The notes beneath the pieces were generated by a model that searched no databases, was not told the origin of the DNA, and was given only the letters and a program-made list of their open reading frames with translations. A stretch of DNA of 64,000 nt from Warburgia ugandensis (lineage: Eukaryota > Streptophyta > Magnoliopsida > Canellales > Canellaceae). The translations under genes and the position numbers were made by a program. The stretch is from positions 43,837,880-43,901,879 of the forward strand of contig CP141132.1 of NCBI GenBank assembly GCA_035236585.1, in the 5' to 3' direction. Of this stretch, positions 3,892 to 61,785 are shown piece by piece. Numbering within the stretch: position 1 is the stretch's first letter; each line of letters opens with the position of its first letter.

Positions 3892-4405
3892 TAGAAAGAG
3901 TATGATGCAACTTAGAGATGGTAGGGGGAGTGCATGTAGAACTAATATGGAAGGGAGATGGAATCATGTAGGGGTGAATGAAGGTGCAGACATGGAGTGT
4001 TAGGGGAGTGGATGAAGGATGCATGCAAGGGTAAAGTGCAAGGGGGATTGCATGTAAATGACTAAGGGTGGATGGTATAAAGTTCTAATGCATAGAAAGG
4101 CTTGAAGGTAGATGCATGGTAATGGAAAGCATGCAAGGAATATGCATGTAAATGAAGGGATGGAAGGGGATGCTATGCTAGGCTAAGATGGTGAAAGGTT
4201 TGGAAAAGTTGGGTAAGGAGGATTCCTATGAGGCTAAGGGGTGCAATGGTGGAGCACTTAATGACAATGCATGCAAGGATGATTGGTGAAGGGCGTGGAA
4301 GAGAGAAGGAAAGGTGCTAGGGGTCCCATGTGTGTAAGTTCTAAAAGGATAGGTGAAAAACAAGGATGTAAGATGATGATGGAGTATGATACATGCATGC
4401 AAAGA

Positions 4406-4409
<4 letters not shown>

Positions 4410-4470
<61 letters not shown>
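4410..4470. repeat. (GA)n microsatellite, about 30 units
   Basis: Uninterrupted GA/AG run of about 61 bp inside the LTR remnant. Confidence 0.98.
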
Positions 4471-4474
<4 letters not shown>

Positions 4475-4636
4475 AGAAGATGGAAGGGATAGGAGAATTG
4501 ATTGAGACTCTTACCTCTTCTTCTTGTGATAGACTTTTGGATCTAAGGGAGAATTGGTTAGAGTGATCTCTCTCTCTAAGGTTTAGCTATGGTATCTGGG
4601 GAAAAGTAAGAGATAGGTCTTCCTTCTCCTTCACCT

Positions 4637-6857: not shown

Positions 6858-8016
6858 TTCGGAAAGGCTTGTAAATGAAAAAATCTTGTAAAAGAATGGA
6901 TGGAATGAGAGAGGATCAGATAGAAGTGTAGGGGCATAAATTTCAAATCCAAAACATGAAGAGAAAAATTTATAAAAATAAAACAAGGTTGAAAAATATT
7001 AAGGCGTGATAATGAAATTGAAATCAGATGTTAAAATGGTGTGATGGGAAGAAGGGGTGAGATGTGGAATTGTTTTATGAAATTTTAGAGAGAGTTAGTT
7101 TGTGGGGTGGAGAAATTAAGACATGAAATTCAAGTTAGATTATGTGTATAAAAAAATCAAAACAAAATGGTGTTGAAATGTCAGAAAATTGGGTAGAAAA
7201 GACTAAAAATAGAGTATGAAAATGATGAATGAATGAAAAGGTTAGAATGTGAGTTTTAAGTGGACCTTTTGGTGAATTATAGAGGATTGAGGGGAGGCCT
7301 ATAGGTATGAGTTTGAACTAGATCTATGATACAAAAAATAAAATAAAACAATGAAATGAAGGGTGTATGATGGAAGAAAAATGAGAACTCTCTTCCCTTT
7401 AAATGAAGTTGAATGGATCAACAACATAACACTTCATCTCTCTCTTCACCTCTTCTACTCGAATGGTTCTCCCCTTTGTATGGTCACTTCATGTGGTATT
7501 TTGGGTTGAGAAATCCACTTTGGGTCTCCATTTCTCTCTCTTCTATGCTGGAGTCAAGTGTGGTCAAGGTAGAATATGTTGGCTCCTTTGGGCTGCCTTC
7601 TTGTGTTTCACATGAAAGGGGTGGAGAGGTGGAAGTTTCCTATTAGAAACTCCTTTCCATCCTCATCCTCATGTATACTTTCCTCTATCACTTTATTCCC
7701 CTCCCACGTAGGAAGTTTCCTAAGTGTATAAATCATGTAATCCATCTTTAACTCAATGCATCTCTAGTAAAAATGTGATTCTTCTCTCCATAATAGTGAC
7801 ATGAGTTGGTGACTAGGGTTTACTCTTATCTTAGCTCCATTCCTCCACCCTCAGATCATGTTCTAAGCCTGGGATGGATGGTAGTGATCTCTTTGAAGTC
7901 TCCCACTAGTAAGATATACTTTAGAGCTTCTTCTTTTTTTCATCCATCAAACTAGCATGCCCTAGATTTGATGACCCAAAGCTCGTAGAGATTTCTTTAT
8001 CCACCAATCATGGCTC

Positions 8017-8164
<148 letters not shown>

Positions 8165-9808
8165 CATTGCTTCTTCCCATTGGTCAATTCTAACTCAAAC
8201 AGATTCTCATTGGTTGCTTTAGGATGGTCTTTGATGTGGAAAGATCATAGTCAATCTTTGTTGAAATTTTTGAATGAAAATTGTAGATTTTCTATTTTTT
8301 GTTTCTTTCCTCACCTTCATATTTTTCTCTTTATTTTTGTATGGATTTCATGTGGAGGTGAGTGAGTGTCTCTTAGAGTATGGGAAAATCATGGAATACA
8401 TGTAGGTTGTGGCCATTTTCAAGTGATGAGAGAGAAAGTTATGCTTTTAAGTCTCCTGCAAGCCCTGGTTTAGATTTTGCTAATCCTCAAGAAGAACTAC
8501 TAAATTATAAAATATAAAAGATCTAAAAATTTCTACCCACTTTCGTTGGTGTTGTCATTTGCATTTAATATATTTAGAAAGCCTTTAAACCCCTAGGTTA
8601 CCCCTAGTGGATGAGTTGTGGTCTCGTAAGCATTTGGAGGAATGATACCCATAAACATTTTTCAAAAATTTCATGAAAGTCCTTTATTTATCTAAGAAAA
8701 TTTTCTTCTATTTAGAATTTATTAAATGTCCAACTTTATCTTGATAATAAAAATGAATAAGAATTTGACCCCTATGCTAATGATATCCAATTATTTTATT
8801 AAACTTCAGAATGTGACTGTGAGTTATAGCTAATATACATAATTATCGGTTTCCAAGTCAAATATAACCTAAATTATCATCCAAAATTATGTTTTAACTT
8901 TAAATCTCACATGATATTCTTGATACTTAGAAGGAAGTCACTCAAAAAGGTGAAAATCTCTCATTAATATATGAGTAGAATGTTATTCATCAAATACAAA
9001 AATCTCACATATTTCATACAAAAGAACAATAACTTAGAAAGAATGATAATGGTATGTATCATGAATAGATATCAACTATTAGGAATATTATGCTCTACCA
9101 ATTTTCTTATTTGTATATAACCTTATCCAAGCCATACTACTCCTAAGATCAAGTTAGGACTTCTACAAAGATGAAACATAGGCTTAGGACTGAGTTATCA
9201 AAAGAATGGGTATACAAGTAAACAAAGATTGTTTCCAAGAATATACAAAGGACTTCTAAGATGTATTTAGAACTTTCATTCCATTTTTCTTATCAAGAGT
9301 GAACATTCTTCCTCGTTGGCTATCTTTTTCTTTCTCTTTTTAACTTGACTTTGTATATAGCCTTTATTTGAACTTTTCTTTTTTTAAGCTTTTCTATATT
9401 CATCTTTTGAATTGTATTGTTCATACTCTTTCTTAAGATAATCTTCAACCATCTCCACACATTTCCAAAACACCTAGGGAATAGACATATTATAAGGGTA
9501 CATTATTGGTAATGGTTGTTTGGGGCTAACAAAAAAAAGGCTTATATTTTAAATGCTCAAGGGGCTAACTATTGAAAAATAACATAGAGAAGCTAAAGGC
9601 TCTCCCTTTATCAAGGATGACCACTATCATTTCTTAGGGTTCATATGACTTAAAGACGACCATAGACATAGGAGATATTTGGTATAATCTATTGTGATTT
9701 CTCAATAGTTGACCAAGAAAAAGAATACTAAGACCAATTAGGAATTTATGTCCACTAAAGAAATAAATTTTAATCTATGTATAGCCCTCAAAAAGAAAGA
9801 ATGGTTCT

Positions 9809-9813
9809 GAAGC
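9809..9813. repeat. Target-site duplication of the TRIM (left)
   Basis: GAAGC directly before TGTCACAACC; the same five bases follow the right end at 10570-10574. Confidence 0.9.
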
Positions 9814-10027
9814 TGTCACAACCCCGTCGGGCCCACAGCAATGATATTGTCCCGTGCGCACTCACGTGCCACGGGTTTTGCTCTTCCCCTGCGTCCAGGG
9901 GAAAACCGGTCATTGCTGTGAAGGGAGGCATTCCCCTTATAACTCAGGCCCATCACCCCCCCATCCGATGTGGGACTAACTCTCAACCATCACCCCCTCG
10001 GCCTTCTCAACTTCGCCACCCCTCACA
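9814..10027 (-). repeat. TRIM LTR, left arm
   Basis: On the minus strand it starts TGTGAGGGGTGGCG and ends GGGGTTGTGACA, giving canonical TG...CA ends and 214 bp, the same length as the right-arm LTR (10356-10569). Confidence 0.85.
9937..9976 (-). promoter_or_regulatory. snRNA-type USE plus TATA pair in left TRIM LTR
   Basis: On the minus strand GTCCCACATCG (9966-9976) exactly fits the plant snRNA upstream sequence element consensus RTCCCACATCG; TATAA (9937-9941) follows after 24 bp. In plant snRNA genes about 23-26 bp between USE and TATA is typical of Pol III and about 33-34 bp of Pol II. Function is inferred. Confidence 0.6.
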
Positions 10028-10148
10028 AGGCCATGGTACCTCACGGTGCCTGAGCCGGCAAGGCTAGATCTCTCCCCCTTAGGGGACACACGCCCTCGTG
10101 TGACCGAGGCACGCATGCGGTTAGCCATCCACCCTCGGGGTCGGGGTT

Positions 10149-10162
10149 TGGCTCTGATACCA
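10149..10162 (-). other. TRIM primer binding site, initiator tRNA-Met type
   Basis: Minus strand reads TGGTATCAGAGCCA, the classic plant PBS complementary to the initiator tRNA-Met 3' end. It lies 2 bp from the LTR edge at 10165. It identifies the insert as an LTR retroelement rather than a DNA MITE. Confidence 0.9.
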
Positions 10163-10164
10163 CT

Positions 10165-10240
10165 TGTCACAACCCCGTCGGGCCCACAACAATGATATTG
10201 TCCCATGCGCACTCACGTGCCACGGGTTTTGCTCTTCCCC
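10165..10240 (-). repeat. Partial second TRIM LTR at the dimer centre
   Basis: Matches the first 76 bp of the left-arm LTR (TGTCACAACCCCGTCGGG on plus; four or fewer differences seen), then passes directly into the inverted right arm at 10241. The join lies in a CCCC shared by both parent sequences. Confidence 0.85.
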
Positions 10241-10355
10241 GACCCCAAGGGTGGATGGCTAACCGCATGCGTGCCTTGGTCACACGAGGGCGTGTGTCCC
10301 CTAAGGGGGAGAGATCTAGCCTTGCCGGCTCAGGCACCGTGAGGTACCATGGCCT

Positions 10356-10569
10356 TGTGAGGGGTGGCGAAGTTGAGAAGGCCGAGGGGGTGATGGTTGA
10401 GAGTTAGTCCCACATCGGCTAGGGGGGCGATGAGCCTGAGTTATAAGGGGAATGCCTCCCTTCACAGCAATGACCGGTTTTCCCCTGGACGCAGGGGAAG
10501 AGCAAAACCCGTGGCACGTGAGTGCGCACGGGACAATATCATTGCTGTGGGCCCGACGGGGTTGTGACA
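10356..10569 (+). repeat. TRIM LTR, right arm
   Basis: Plus-strand copy of the 214-bp LTR, TGTGAGG...GTGACA, ending at the right target duplication. Confidence 0.85.
10407..10446 (+). promoter_or_regulatory. snRNA-type USE plus TATA pair in right TRIM LTR
   Basis: GTCCCACATCG at 10407-10417 and TATAA at 10442-10446, separated by 24 bp; same arrangement as in the left LTR. TATA context is GTTATAAGGGG. Confidence 0.6.
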
Positions 10570-10574
10570 GAAGC
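10570..10574. repeat. Target-site duplication of the TRIM (right)
   Basis: GAAGC, identical to 9809-9813. Confidence 0.9.
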
Positions 10575-16152: not shown

Positions 16153-19100
16153 AATAACCCTAGACTTAAATTTTGCAAGTCCTCAAGTAAAACTACTAAA
16201 ATAGGAAATAAATTTTTTTTTTTAAATCCACAAATTACTAACCATTTTCATATGTATTGTCATCTACATTTAGCATATGCATAAAGCCTTTAAACCCTTA
16301 TGTTACCCCTAGTGGACAAGTTATAGTCTTGCAAGGGTTTCTAAAAATGACACCCATAAATGTTTCAAAAACCATACATGGAAGTTCTTTTTCCTCAGAG
16401 AATTTTTTTACTCAGCATTCATTAAATTTCTAAATTCAGCACACTAATAAAAATGAATAGCAATTCAAAATCTTACCGATATGCTAAAAATATCCCATTA
16501 CTTCATTAAAGATCAGAATGCTAATGTGTGTTATAGTCAATATATATAATTATCAGTTTTTAAGTCAATTATAACATAAATTATCATCCAAATGTATGCT
16601 TTGACTTCAAATCTCACATAATATACTCATCCTGAGAGAGAAGTCACTCAAAAGTGAGTAGAATACTATTAATCAAGTCCAAAAATCTCACATATTTCTT
16701 ACAAATGAACAATAACTTAGAAAGAATGATAATGGTCTCATGAGAGGATATAAACTATTAGAAATGTTACACTCTACCAAATTCCCTACTTATTCATTGT
16801 TATATTCAAGCCATACTACTCCTAAGATCAAGTTAGGACTTCTATTAGGACAAAACAAAGGCTTAGATAGGGGTCATCAAAAGAATTTGGTAAAAGGATA
16901 AACAAAGATTGTCTGGAAGGTATATAAAGGTCTTTTAAGAAGTACTCACAACTTTCCTCCCATTTTTCTTCACAAGAGTGAATATTCTTCATTTTCATTG
17001 GCTATCTTTTTCTTTTCTTTTTAACTTCACTTTATATATAGCCTTATTTGTCTTTTCTTATTTCTAAAATTTATCTTATGTTCATCTCTTGAATTGTATT
17101 TCCCATACTTTTTCTTCAAGATATTTCTTTAATTTTCTCTACATGTTTCCAAAACAACTAGGTAGTGAATATATTATAGGGTAACAGTATAAGTAATGGT
17201 TGTTTAGCTAACAAAGAAAAGGCTTATAATTAAAGGCTCAAGGGACTAACTACTGAAAAATAACATAGAGAAGGCCAAAATCTATAGGTTTACCAAGGAT
17301 GGCCTCTAACATTTCCTGGGATTCATATGACTTAAAGATAACCATAAACTTAGTAGGTATATGGTATAGTCTTTTGTTTGATTTCCTAATAGTTGACCAA
17401 GATGAAGAATAATGAGACCAACTAGGAAATTAATTTAGCTAAAGAAAATTTTGAATTTATATATAACCCTCAAAAAGGAAGAATGGCTCTAACCTCATTA
17501 GGGTTAATAGTCTCCACATATCTTCTTTAAGATCTCTAAGTTATATTTACTCTTGAACAAAAATTATATCCACATATCTTCTTTAAGATCTCTAAGTTAT
17601 ATTTACTCTTGGACATAAATTATATGCATATAGCTATTTTACTCAATAATTGTTTTGAGTTTAATTTTTCATGGAACACTTTGGGAAATGGATAAACAGT
17701 GAACTAATTGCATAAAAATCTATTAATAAGCTAAAGTTTAAGAGATAACTGAATATTTTAAAAATTGATGGATTCTCATCCTTTTAAAGGAACTTATAAT
17801 AAAATTTAATTTTTAATTAATTTTTAAAAATAAAATGACTCTAAAAACCTAAACAAACACATCAAAATTTAAAATTCCCCAACCTAGACTTAAATTAAAC
17901 ATTGTCCTCAATGTTTAGAACTACATACCAAGGACAAATGAAAATAATAAACCTGAGAGGAAAGGGTTAGAAGAGATGTACCTACACTCCTAGGATATTG
18001 CATTAATCTATAGATGTGGTCCAAAAGTGCATAGTATATAATGCAAAAAAGTAGAATACAACTCTATGACACTAACTAACTTAGTCCTAAGCTAACCATG
18101 AAGGAGTTGTAGAAAACCCTATTTATTTCAAAATTTCATGATAATTTATATACATTCTCCAACCAAAAATGTAAGGTGGTGAAAAGATAAGGATATGAAA
18201 GACCACCATGACTCTTAATTTCTTGGGACCAACTTCAGATGAATGGTTTTGATTGAGGAATAATAGTGCCCATAAGAGATGTTCATGTTCCTTTGGATGC
18301 AAAGCAATGATGGGGCTTAAACCCTTATGAACTACTAGGATACACCTTAGAGTTTGTTGATGTTGGGCCAGAACATCATTTAACTCTCTTCTTGTTCTAC
18401 AGTCGCAAGTAAGTTTTCAAATGAACCTAAACTTTCATATGGTGAACTATATGATAAAAGTTGTAGGTCCAAATTAGTACTTCTTCACTATATGGCTCAA
18501 ATTGAATCTCAATAGCTGTAAGGGGCTCTACTCAGACTTATCATTGAGAAGTGTCCATTAATGACATAGTATCTAGTAAATTATTCACTTCATCAATGGA
18601 GGTGTCCATATCAAAATTAAAATGAGCGAAACATGTCTTAAGTGGATCTTTGCTAGCGAATGGTAGGGATTGTGTATCAACTAGACTCTCTACCTCATAA
18701 GGGTCATAAATGATTTAAGTTATCGAATGTGTTGGCAGAGCTAATCATTTAAATACCTACATATATAATCAAGTAGGGGCCACTAGAGTGGCAATAGGTC
18801 TCCTCATTCTAAGAGGGTCCTATGAGCTCGTAAGCTACTAAGGTCTCTTCTAAATTAATTTTAAATTAATTGTTGGGGTTAAGTTATGCTTAAGGTTATG
18901 TTTAACCTAGGTGGGCCAAGGGATGTGATAAAATCCACTCTTGATCATATTGGGGTGATTTCCCTTGCTAATCTTTTAAGCACATTCCCATGACAGACTG
19001 ATCAACGTATATTACACCTTAAAGCAATTAAAAGTTCCCTAATTATGCAATAAAAGCAATAAACTAATGCAACTATCTATATGCCATCTAAACAGGGGAT

Positions 19101-30422: not shown

Positions 30423-31063
30423 TGTTGTTATGCTTTAAATACTCATAAGTGCACAAATCTATTGTAGTATTCTCATGCAAACGAGGTCAATCCCACGGGG
30501 AATCTCACAAAAAAGCAATTTAGATGGATCTTATTTAACTTGTTTATCTTAGCCAAACAAGAAAGATTGAGTTGATTTATTTAGGAATGTAAACACAAAG
30601 AATGTAAACATGCACAAAATTAGAATTTACTATTAATGAAAAGTGTGTCCAATTCGAAAGTATAAAACTTGATCTAAACATCCACTTTAACCAATTATAA
30701 TACTTGTAAACTAAAGTATGATAGCATACCAGGGGAATCTAGGAAGAAATATAATAGAAAAGATGTCTAAAGTGATGAACTAAAGCAAGGAAAACAACAC
30801 ATAAAACTAGATGAGTCAAGGGCAAAATGTGTGAATCCAAAAATGGAAAATCATGGATCTAAGTTTCCTCATATCTTGGAAATCACTATCATATAAGAAT
30901 AGCTTAGATATTTGATAAAGGAACAGGAAGAGAGAGTAAGGAAGGAAAACTAGGCAAAGAACAAAATAAGGACTAACCTTCACTCCATGAAGGCAAAGTA
31001 AGAGAAACAAACTTCAAAAAGAGAGCTTAAGGTTAGAACCAAGAAGGAAAATCTAGCTCTAAA

Positions 31064-31161
<98 letters not shown>

Positions 31162-32148
31162 CTTCGACAAAGTAGGAGTTATGCATGGAACTCCTCTCCT
31201 CTTAGATTTCCATGTTAAACACCTTGGTGGTTATGGAAAGAAAGAAGAGATATGAAAATACAAGGAGAAAGAAAGGGGAGAAGGTGGAGTGAGGTGATTG
31301 GGTCAGTGAGAGTTTTAGAAAGGTGAGAGTCTTAGGTAGAATTTAGGAAGATGGGATGCAAAATTCGTGATTGCTTTGTATGGTGAGGTGGAGAGCGAGA
31401 AAAAAGGGAGAAAATAATGCTAAAAGGAAAGAAATAAGGTGGTTTCTTCCTATTGGTCCACATGCTATCTTACCCAATTGGATTTTCATTCAAATATATT
31501 CCAATTATCTTCTTAAAAATTCCATAGATATTTACTTTAGATTCTCCTCCAATTATGGCTTTCCATGTAGCTTGGCTCATATGACCTGATGGCTAGGTTT
31601 TGGGACTCTTTTTGGCTTGGCTTGGTGGCTCAACCCCCTTGGCTTTGTGTCTTGGCTTGCTTTGTAGCTTGTCACCTTCTTCATGGCTTACATGGCTTAG
31701 GTGACTTAAGTGAATCCCATGCATAAGTAGTTGACTTTGCATGGCTTGTGCATGGGCCTACTTTAGTCACCTTTGACTTCTCCAATTCCATCCTTTGCTT
31801 GTCTTTAAGTTGATCTTGATCCTTGATCTTACATTGGATTGATGATATTTAGGCCTTGACTCAATCTTTTTATCTTGATCTTCAATTTTCATCTCAATCG
31901 ATCTTGGCCATCAAATCATCATCTTGACTCCTACAAAAAGTCAAAGACTCTATTTAAATCCTACAAAAATATGATTATTTATATACTTACCTTGGATTAG
32001 TCGTTGAACCTATAAATTATCAAATATTTGATTTATTAGGTCAGAAATGCGTGTTGTAATTTTTTACCAAAAACCCTAATTTAATGCTATAAGTTATAAT
32101 ACATAGGCAACTAATTGAGTATTTTTATACAAAATTTGAAACTTAAAA
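30423..32148 (-). repeat. 5' LTR of the nested element
   Basis: Starts TGTTGTTATGCTTTAAATACTC and ends at the GCTAG duplication. It is collinear with 25561-28118 but about 0.8 kb shorter, and carries a GA microsatellite that the other LTR lacks. Confidence 0.85.
31067..31158. repeat. (AG)n microsatellite, about 46 units
   Basis: 92 bp of uninterrupted AG in the 5' LTR of the nested element. It lies between the flanks CTCTAAAGGA and GGAGCTTC, which in the sister LTR enclose the promoter zone instead. The Leu-Ser frame on the minus strand is spurious. Confidence 0.97.
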
Positions 32149-33789: not shown

Positions 33790-36700
33790 TCATCCAGAAA
33801 GAAGTCCCTCGAAAAATGTTAAATCTCTCTTTAATATGTGAGTAGAATACATCAAAGCCAAATTCTCACATATGTCATACAAAAGAATGATAACTTAGTA
33901 AGAATTTGATAATGGTCTCATGGAAAGGATATCAACTAATAAGATTGTATGCTACATATTCCTACTTAGTCGTAACCATATCCAATTCATAATTCTAGTA
34001 AGATCAACTTAGGACTTCTATTAAGATGAAACATGGGCTTAGGATAGTGTTATTAAAGAAATGAGTATAAGGATAAACAAAGATTGTTTTGAAAGATATG
34101 TAAAGGTCTTCTTCAACTTCCTTTTCTCATAAGAGTGAACATTTCCTTTTTCATTGACTATCTTTCTTGGTTGTCCTCTTTCACCTTTGGTGTAGCCTTT
34201 TTCTAAATTTTTCTTTTTTTCAGCCTGTAGATGTTCACTCTTGACTTCTTTTACTCATACTTTTCTTAAGATACTTCTTCAACTATTTCTACATATTTCC
34301 AAAAAAAAACTAGGTATTGGATTTGTTAATAAGGTTATTGGTCAATGGATTCACAAAGAAAAAGGTTTATTGAAAGGCTCAAGGGGTCAACTAGCAATGA
34401 AACAACTTAGGAAGGCTTAGGTTAAACAAGAATGACCTCTATCATTTTCTAAGTTTTGTATAGCTTGAATTGACCATAAACATAACAAATAGATGGTAGT
34501 CTTTTATTGGGATTTCTCTTAATAGTTGACGAAAGCAAGAATTATGAGTCCAACTTGGAAAATATGTCTTGTAGAGAAAATTTTTAATTTATGTATAACC
34601 CTCTCAAGAAAGATTATCTCTAAGCTCACATGTTTTATAGGTCTCTACAAATCTTCTTCAAGATCTCTAAGTTATATTTTTCCTTCAACTTAAAATATAT
34701 ATGTGACTATTTTGTGCAATTATTGTTCCAAGTTTAATTTTTCATGGAATACTTTAGCAAAAGGATAAAATTATGAACTAATTGTATCCAAATATATTAA
34801 TACGCTAAAGTTCAAAAGATAGATTAAATATTTAGAAAATCCAGTTTCTCATCCTTGTGAAGGAAATTGTCATAAATTTTTTAAGTCTTTTAAAAAAAAT
34901 TAATTTTTCAAAATAAAGGACTAGAAAGAGCTTTGGACACATCAAAATATAAACACCCTACCCTGGACTTAAATTAAATATTGTCTCCAATGTTTTTAAA
35001 TAAATGCATGGAAAAAATGAAAAAATAAGTAAAGAGAGAAGAGTTAAAAAGATAGTACATACACATCAACAATGGTGCCTTGATCTATTGATGTGGGTAA
35101 TTATGCTAAAATATACAATGCAAATGCAAATGCAACTCTATGGCATTTATGCTAAACTAACTAATGTGTTAAAGCTACACCCACATTAACGATAAAAAAG
35201 TTTCTAGAAAACTCGCTCCATCTCTAAATTTCACCATAATCAATGTCCATTATCCACCTAGAAATGTATCATGGGACAACAAGATAGCGTGATGAACCAC
35301 CATGACAAAGAATTTCTTTGGACCAATGCAAGGTGACTTGGCCTATGAACTGTCAAATTGGGTAGTATGATGCCAAAATAAAAAATATAAAAAAATTTAC
35401 TCCTCTTTGACATCTTCCTATATGCTAAGGCTAAGCTCACTTTACATCTTCTTAAAGGGTTCTTCATTTTCACGTTGAGAAAGGGAAATATGAAAGCCTA
35501 TACCCTCTTTATCATCTTCTATACACCCAAGAGCATGTTGATGTGTGGCCATAACATCAATTTGCTCACCATCCTATCCTATGTCAGACTCTAGGGTAAT
35601 AGGCAAGGGATTAGATAAATTAAAACTATCACAGTGTGCACTTTCTAGGTTAGGTTGTAGGTTTGGGTCAAGTAACTTATGATGAAATGGTTCAAATGGA
35701 TTGTTAGGAAATGTAATGGGTCCTACTCAGGCTTTCTATTTTGAAGTATCCATTAGTGGTGCAGTATCATGTGAACCATTCATTTCATCAATGGAGCTAA
35801 CTATGTCAAAATCAAAACCAAAGTGAGCTAGACATGTAGTAAGTTGATCAATGTTGGAGGATGGTAGGGGTGGTAGACTCTATATCATATTTACTTGAAA
35901 AGGTCCTTCAGAGTGTGTTTATCTAGTATCAAAGACATTAAGATTTATGTCCACGTTCCCAATGGACAACTTCATGGTGCCATTCCTATAGTTAATGATA
36001 GCAATGGATGTGGCTGAGAATGGCCATCCCAAAATGACTGAAATTTGACTGCCTAGGTGTGCTATAGGCTATGTATCTAAGACTAGATAGTCTACTGGGA
36101 ATAAAAACTTATCAACTTGAACCAATACATCCTCCACCACACCATGAGAAACTTTAACTAACCTATCTACTAATTGTAGTATGGTGGTAGTCTTATTCAT
36201 CTCACCTAAACCTAATTCCTTATGTGCAGAATAAGGTAAGAGGTTAATACTTGACCCCAAAACAAGTAGAGCCCTATCAATTCTTGTTCCCCAATCACAC
36301 ATGATATAGTGGGGCACCCTGGGTCTTTATGCTTTGGAGGGATTTTGTGTTGCAAGATTGAGCTTACTTACCCAATGAGAAATGCTTTCTTCTCCACCTA
36401 AAGTTTTCTCTTATGGGTGTAGAGGTTTTTGAGACATTTGGCATAAGAAAGTATATCCTTGATTGCATTAATGAAATGTTTATATTCACTTATTTAAATA
36501 TGTCCATTAGCTTATTAAAATTATTATCATTCTTAGCCATATGAAAACATTGAGATAATGGAGCCTTTGGAATACAATGTGCTTTGGGACTAGGGTATAT
36601 AAAAGGAGGGCACTATTTCATCTCTTTTCGCTTTTGATTCTTTATAGGACTCTCATTGTCCTCAACTTACTATATTTCCTTATTTAGACCTATCTAATTA

Positions 36701-49885: not shown

Positions 49886-50205
49886 GACAAATCAATAGCC
49901 GAATCACAATGGATGTTCAATAGGCAGTCCAATCATGATCAACGATCAAATCTGTGCAGCTTGCAAGAATTGGGCACGGGACAAGTCGTGGGAGTAGGTT
50001 GACCATTGAGTGAGGAGCCTCAAGCGTGCCTGCTAATGGCCGGTGGTGAGAACCAGAAGGAAAAAAGAAGAAGGGTCTGGTACTAGCGTGATGGTGGTAG
50101 GCTCAAGCAGTCGCATGGAGGGAGAAGAAGAAGAGGAAGGGAAGCGAGAAAACAGGACTGGCGCTCCCATCAGGCTATGCTGATAAAAGGAAAGTGGAGG
50201 GTGAG

Positions 50206-50208
<3 letters not shown>

Positions 50209-50275
<67 letters not shown>
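50209..50275. repeat. (GA)n microsatellite, about 33 units
   Basis: 67 bp of GA in the LTR. Confidence 0.97.
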
Positions 50276-50277
<2 letters not shown>

Positions 50278-50400
50278 GAGTTCACACACGGTGGCTCCTA
50301 TGGATAGCCTGCTTAGGTTGTTGGGTCAGGCAATGTTGGTGACCTGCTACTGCTGACAACTAAGAGGAAGAAAACAGAGGAGAAGAGAAAGAGAGAGCGA

Positions 50401-61771: not shown

Positions 61772-61785
61772 GGGCTCTGATACCA
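61772..61785 (-). other. Primer binding site, initiator tRNA-Met type
   Basis: Minus strand TGGTATCAGAGCCC, the standard plant chromovirus PBS, 4 bp from the LTR edge. Confidence 0.9.

Follow-up and report, generated by a model that had tools for sequence, protein, structure and literature searches.

How could a retrotransposon-like element enter a genome as a palindrome bearing the same terminal repeat end on both outer sides? This question is raised by a 756-bp element at positions 9814–10569 of a 64,000-nt stretch of Warburgia ugandensis DNA (hereafter the window, that is, the whole stretch analysed), which resembles a terminal-repeat retrotransposon in miniature (TRIM). In the usual view, integrase joins the two different ends of one cDNA to the target. 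We found that both outer ends of this element are U5 ends of its long terminal repeat (LTR), and that the same architecture recurs at most family loci read, with junctions that differ. We consider it rather probable that these are dimeric TRIM-like insertions, each made of two cDNAs that were linked by their 5' (U3/internal) sides and integrated via two U5 ends.

The window palindrome is a single insertion

The two arms of the element (9814–10146 and 10237–10569) are inverted copies of each other over 333 nt including a common CCCC, or 329 nt without it, with six mismatched pairs (9950/10433, 9955/10428, 9962/10421, 9964/10419, 10106/10277 and 10136/10247), nearly to the base what an initial annotation of this DNA had described. 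They are the longest entry in the inverted-repeat listing of the window (334 nt, 98%, one flanking base per side included), and the repeat exceeds chance expectation. Reading of the sequence from left to right delineated the following features, among which a polypurine tract (PPT) and a primer-binding site (PBS).

9809..9813, no strand: left target-site duplication GAAGC (sequence reading)
9814..10068, minus strand: left outer LTR, 255 nt, sense start TCTAGCC and end GTTGTGACA, U5 end outward
10069..10080, minus strand: PPT of the left half, AAGGGGGAGAGA
10081..10148, minus strand: remainder of the short left-half internal region (PBS–PPT interval), overlapped by no open reading frame (ORF) of at least 130 aa
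10149..10162, minus strand: PBS of the left half, TGGTATCAGAGCCA, 14 nt
10163–10164, minus strand: spacer AG beside the PBS
10165..10240, minus strand: last 76 nt of the second (5') LTR of the left half
10237..10240, no strand: head-to-head junction in the CCCC common to both halves
10241..10302, plus strand: right-half internal region, PBS absent, beginning just past the expected PBS place
10303..10314, plus strand: PPT of the right half, AAGGGGGAGAGA
10315..10569, plus strand: right outer LTR, 255 nt, U5 end outward
10570..10574, no strand: right target-site duplication GAAGC

Read on the minus strand, the left half runs from the 76-nt LTR end through AG, the 14-nt PBS, the internal region and the PPT into its 255-nt LTR; the right half runs from CCCC through the PPT into the other 255-nt LTR. 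Direct LTR repeats are present within the arms, with the outer LTRs inverted. The centre with one PBS and 76 bp of a second LTR, the join in CCCC and the GAAGC on both sides all agree with the initial annotation, and its assignment to the TRIMs is supported, as TRIM-like, by the PBS, the PPT present in both halves and the 5-bp duplication. The LTR end TGTGACA is followed by AG and then by the PBS, which we take to be of the initiator tRNA-Met type. None of the four window ORFs of at least 130 aa overlaps the element. Four of 255 positions distinguish the two outer LTRs, and the central 76-nt piece differs from both of them at 10189 and 10205. For both outer LTRs the start was placed from the position of the PPT and the clustering of inner arm ends; the repeat ends in CA, and this inferred start reads TCTAGCC or GGCTAGCC, instead of the TG...CA ends that are given as an LTR criterion, also in PMC5659011.

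Joined without the insert, the flanks align to two further places in the window, in both cases across the insertion point and with a single target copy.

17184..17569, plus strand: paralogous empty site, aligning with the joined flanks at 80% (314/392)
34353..34917, plus strand: another paralogous empty site, aligning with the joined flanks at 74% (430/582)

Given these empty sites and the GAAGC duplication, the whole palindrome entered at once, so that it represents one insertion with a 5-bp duplication, as had been surmised. Window stretches such as 8.5–14 kb, 16–20.5 kb and 33–36.5 kb are mutually repeated at ~60–87% identity and resemble a cluster of old duplications, the source of both empty sites.

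Head-to-head pairs across the family

Family loci were sought in the window's own assembly (1.12 Gb, 14 contigs). A query with the whole palindrome gave 317 matches, with the best 40 of 1228 first-look candidates scored, and 40 places among the matches listed, the window locus included, were read as a first sample. Since this query is itself palindromic, a second sample was drawn with a plain 25-base U5-PBS pattern, which hits 917 sites with at most two mismatches versus 0 for a reversed control; the first 100 sites were listed, and 20 exact-match sites were taken in list order, skipping those already read or clustered. A further U5-PBS search found 644 sites, again with the first 100 listed. 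A 24-base LTR end had no exact match in viral_contigs or genome_contigs.

The outer LTRs proved to be inverted, head to head, at 48 of the 60 loci read. The strand map registers a minus-to-plus (5'-to-5') change at 46 of these 60 (34/40 in the first sample and 12/20 in the second), and two further loci lie beyond it, namely L036, with a 23-nt stub arm, and L089, with an arm from a Gypsy element. Only two tail-to-tail changes were seen, at L042 and L061, each flanked by two head-to-head junctions; L042:1741–3456 contains a junction and its neighbouring units twice, probably through later tandem duplication. Perfect 5-bp duplications outside two outward U5 ends were evident at 30 loci, all within the 48 (22/40 in the first sample; 8/20 in the second, L088 among them). 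In the first sample, duplications matched in 22 of 45 within-locus end pairs versus 2 of 1710 cross-locus pairs, and in the second in 7 of 18 versus 0 of 528. The first 100 sites from each of the two U5-PBS listings (917 and 644), 200 in all and partly overlapping the 60 loci, were also compared on coordinates only: neighbours at most 2 kb apart were head-to-head in 15 cases and tail-to-tail in none.

By comparison, a search of the 60 loci for a canonical U3...U5 insertion, with a TG start and a duplication, gave one match (L062), read as chance. With the TCTAGCC/GGCTAGCC start, 3120 comparisons gave two matches (L033 and L089) for 3.0 expected, and on reading neither lies at such a start. The S247 boundary was rejected as the LTR start of some copies, as it marks only a subfamily divergence point. 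When the sequence upstream of 24 ends that were single-armed or unresolved, with 10 of the 12 one-armed loci represented, was searched for duplications, partner ends emerged for L088 and L089; TG-start matches from this search in L043, L041, L059 and L063 are without U5-like sequence and were not counted. A further 3 kb read on the far side of L087 contained no partner end.

Junctions between the arms

The exact window junction occurs once in the genome with up to three mismatches allowed, and a palindromic family with a shared junction was accordingly rejected. The initial annotation had proposed this search as a test in which further loci with the junction would show a mobile palindromic family, and a single locus a one-off aberrant cDNA. 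The single match was obtained, yet this either-or is not supported, since 48 of 60 loci are head-to-head and 46 junctions differ. Indeed, the coordinate pairs of the 46 scored junctions (L047 and the second L042 junction left out, L061 counted twice) are all different. Unique junctions combined with a recurrent head-to-head form imply that dimers arise anew repeatedly. L045 and the omitted L047 carry the same head-to-head insertion ~113 kb apart on C5, and their identical flanks identify a segmental duplication.

Fifteen of the 46 junctions show 1–5 bp of shared letters, one shows none and four overlap by more than 5; another seven contain 1–12 unassigned bases and 19 more than 12. Inner arm ends fall within 3 nt of the PPT/U3 boundary in 12 of 92 cases (1.8 expected) and within 12 nt in 27 of 92 (6.6 expected), an excess that speaks less strongly for fusion at this end in that the boundary was chosen post hoc and the null is uniform. 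Several direct copies of a sister subfamily likewise end at the PPT/U3 boundary, and the DNA that follows the PPT reads TCTAGCC or GGCTAGCC, not TG. At L041 and L080 both arms end at the U3 start. The L041 junction is filled by 126 bp (L041:1585–1710) from two places of one dispersed repeat that lie 1.8 kb apart, with their order swapped. Many of the listed matches of this unnamed repeat are on C9, C10 and C13, and L092, a carrier of the filler pieces, contains no ORF of 80 aa.

Origin of the two arms

The innermost arm units come from different subfamilies at 20 of the 46 scored junctions, although assignment on such short inner pieces is approximate, which lessens what this count can contribute to a two-molecule origin. 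U5 termini can also differ within one duplication: L053 starts with TGTCACAACC and ends with GGATGTGTCA, and L035 starts with TGACACACCC and ends with GGTTGTGACA. When the outermost 100 bp were compared at 28 loci with a duplication (L088 and L089 not among them), median identity was 0.91 between same-locus arms versus 0.88 across loci; the arms are mutually closest at 3 of the 28 (L070, which is the window locus, L069 and L033), and at the other 25 one arm has a closer relative at another locus. At the window locus, a rare TT is common to both arms (5/102 and 3/102 elsewhere), and each of their six differences involves a letter in one arm that is rare elsewhere, so these arms derive from a single template or from two almost identical ones. 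They would represent either two sister cDNAs or one self-copied cDNA, a choice to which the family, rather than this locus alone, can speak.

In L089, the plus arm comes from the LTR end of an abundant Ty3/Gypsy element. A 261-bp stretch within this arm has 2221 first-look candidates in the genome, the best 40 of which were scored, and another copy of it continues with GT and TGGTATCAGAGCC. Same-strand matches 6.3 kb apart enclose domains of reverse transcriptase (RT) and RNase H, followed by a weak match to an integrase zinc-binding domain, below threshold at 22.8 bits for a cut-off of 25.5. The order RT, RNase H, integrase is that of Ty3/Gypsy elements, and the L089 partner is assigned to them because of it. 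A Gypsy copy on C6, with an LTR start that is seemingly TGTGACA, was rejected as a clean control, its flanks being mismatched (CTTCC versus CCCTT).

A proposed route to integration through two U5 ends

Retroviral integrase normally acts on CA-3' at each cDNA end, a signal that the U5 ends of this family have and the inferred U3 end lacks. The cDNA end set by the PPT, starting with TCTAGCC or GGCTAGCC and not with TG, would be a poor integrase substrate, and each cDNA would therefore have one good end. Two such molecules, whether complete, truncated or resected, might be linked by their 5' sides, in many cases where a few letters are shared, and the fused pair would then be inserted by integrase through its two U5 ends, with palindromes with clean duplications and varied centres as the predicted outcome. 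Some one-armed copies may stem from a one-ended cDNA whose other end was placed into host DNA without integrase. As for the fusion itself, the sequence is compatible with host end joining, before or after U5 insertion, and with RT switching between cDNAs; the L041 and L080 junctions, in which neither arm extends past the U3 start, lean towards the joining of finished ends, and the L041 filler fits both. More tentatively, the lineage could have lost any usable U3 end and be maintained through obligate pairing, with palindromes as its normal integrated form. It is just as conjectural, if plausible, that each integrase-made insertion needs two cDNAs, from the same, a sister or a helper family, that contribute one U5 end each.

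Retroviruses offer partial precedents, as far as the accessible parts of the sources go. In avian sarcoma-leukosis virus (ASLV) with one defective end, integrase handles the insertion of the good end while host enzymes take over at the other (PMC5041404), and in xenotropic murine leukemia virus-related virus (XMRV) loss of the U3 CA has been linked to uncoordinated integration (PMC2857682). One-ended integration of ASLV and human immunodeficiency virus (HIV), which includes truncation, resembles the proposed route in its single good end inserted by integrase (PMC5041404). However, the second viral end goes into host DNA with rearrangement, whereas here it would be replaced by the U5 end of a second cDNA, with a clean 5-bp duplication.

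Several observations weigh against dimeric integration through U5 ends. The perfect duplication marks 30 of the 60 loci, not all; L045/L047 and L049 have two U5 ends and no matching 5-bp duplication; and 12 loci show one arm only, their other ends being unexplained (L043, L050, L055, L059, L067, L074, L075, L076, L078, L081, L087 and L090), with no clear U5 end at L055 and L078. More than 12 nt are unassigned by the references at 19 of 46 junctions, and more than 150 nt at five (L032, L063, L073, L079 and L083), of which only L032 and L083 have a duplication. Arms that are mutually closest (3/28, the window locus included) are also predicted by a one-molecule origin. The loci read number 60, versus 917 and 644 U5-PBS sites. 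Finally, the title of a Rous sarcoma virus paper reportedly states that CA at U3 is not required.

Among the one-armed loci, L067 carries at positions 1030–1065 a TRIM unit whose PBS directly follows unrelated sequence ending in CCTTCACA, perhaps a chimeric 5' LTR.

Alternative origins

The same dimers could be made wholly by RT, if a minus-strand cDNA, still growing in the particle, came to be extended on the minus-strand cDNA of another molecule, the palindrome being integrated once complete. We regard this as a serious alternative, if an unlikely one. The microhomology at junctions fits this origin, the two repeat pieces in the L041 filler are what successive switches would leave, co-packaged RNAs would account for mixed subfamilies, and template-switch complexes with a duplication have been published for LTR elements (PMC1950507). 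Those complexes are direct, however, and a head-to-head product would require a DNA-to-DNA switch; moreover, the L041 and L080 junctions at the U3 start resemble joined finished ends.

Self-priming, to which the initial annotation had also pointed, supposes that the 3' end of a minus-strand cDNA folds back on CCCC and copies itself, after which the hairpin is opened and integrated. It may still apply to the window locus, whose arms differ at only 6 of 333 positions, share the rare TT and show one rare letter per difference. For the family it is disfavoured, since it cannot combine arms from distinct subfamilies, or pair a family arm with one from another element, and 25 of the 28 loci compared have an arm that is closer to a copy at another locus. 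A hairpin would also present a single duplex end and would need opening and copying before insertion. Overall, we deem this origin improbable.

Two ordinary or nested insertions that were later rearranged, or an assembly error, make a still weaker case. Repeats are prone to both, and L042 and L061 each combine two junctions with one tail-to-tail change. Yet a single duplication bounds the whole unit at 30 of 60 loci, two empty sites exist for the window insertion, and the orientation bias of 15 versus 0 is not expected from random rearrangement or error, all of which renders this explanation very improbable. Least credible of all is a foldback or terminal-inverted-repeat DNA transposon moving as a palindrome, which would match the inverted ends, the tandem-unit arms and the 5-bp duplication, but not junctions that differ among loci (the window one being found only there), units with a PPT and a PBS right after the LTR end, or an arm made of a Gypsy LTR end.

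Relation to known elements and significance

The nearest published case that we found, in an article accessible in part, is a single inverted TRIM pair in maize: one SMART array 'with two inverted TRIMs' and the target-site duplication CTTCA (Gao 2016, PMC4717578). It shares with the Warburgia palindromes the TRIM identity, tandem units, two inverted units and an outer 5-bp duplication. In the part consulted it stands as one example with no mechanism, whereas in Warburgia the inverted arrangement is the prevailing form among the loci read, with varied junctions and partners from other families. Template-switching LTR complexes of Triticeae are likewise fused elements bounded by a single target-site duplication (Sabot and Schulman 2007, PMC1950507); they are direct and share a middle LTR, in contrast to the window element, which is head-to-head with a partial internal LTR and U5 ends outside. 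The TRIMs Wukong (PMC4528315) and Cassandra (PMC7215508) are described, in the available portions of both articles, as short, non-coding elements with LTR, PBS and PPT that form tandem arrays. In the available Wukong text the words 'inverted', 'opposite' and 'palindrom' are absent, and in that on Cassandra 'inverted' concerns primers, not copies (12 of 13 places). Our literature search, the scope of which excluded most subscription journals, retrieved no recognised description of a U5...U5 palindrome family.

If the fusion of two cDNAs and their entry through U5 ends holds true, the hundreds of sites of this family would together document intermolecular integration in nature, each locus giving a readable junction with its microhomology, filler and partner identity. 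This would make testable whether RT or host repair makes the fusion and which autonomous element mobilises a TRIM, for which the Gypsy arm of L089 provides a lead. Palindromes of this kind would be expected to yield hairpin RNA and hence to silence themselves.

Minor observations

Elsewhere in the genome, nine same-strand U5-PBS sites of the TGTGTCA subfamily lie within 3.6 kb (G000:C1:105791177-105794734) and form a long direct array. In the window, a second PBS-like sequence follows TTTGTTACA on the minus strand (61774–61785) and probably belongs to a fragmentary LTR element of another kind. Simple-repeat tracts that resemble one another lie, on both strands, at window positions 4368–4542, 8013–8168, 31028–31216 and 50173–50327.
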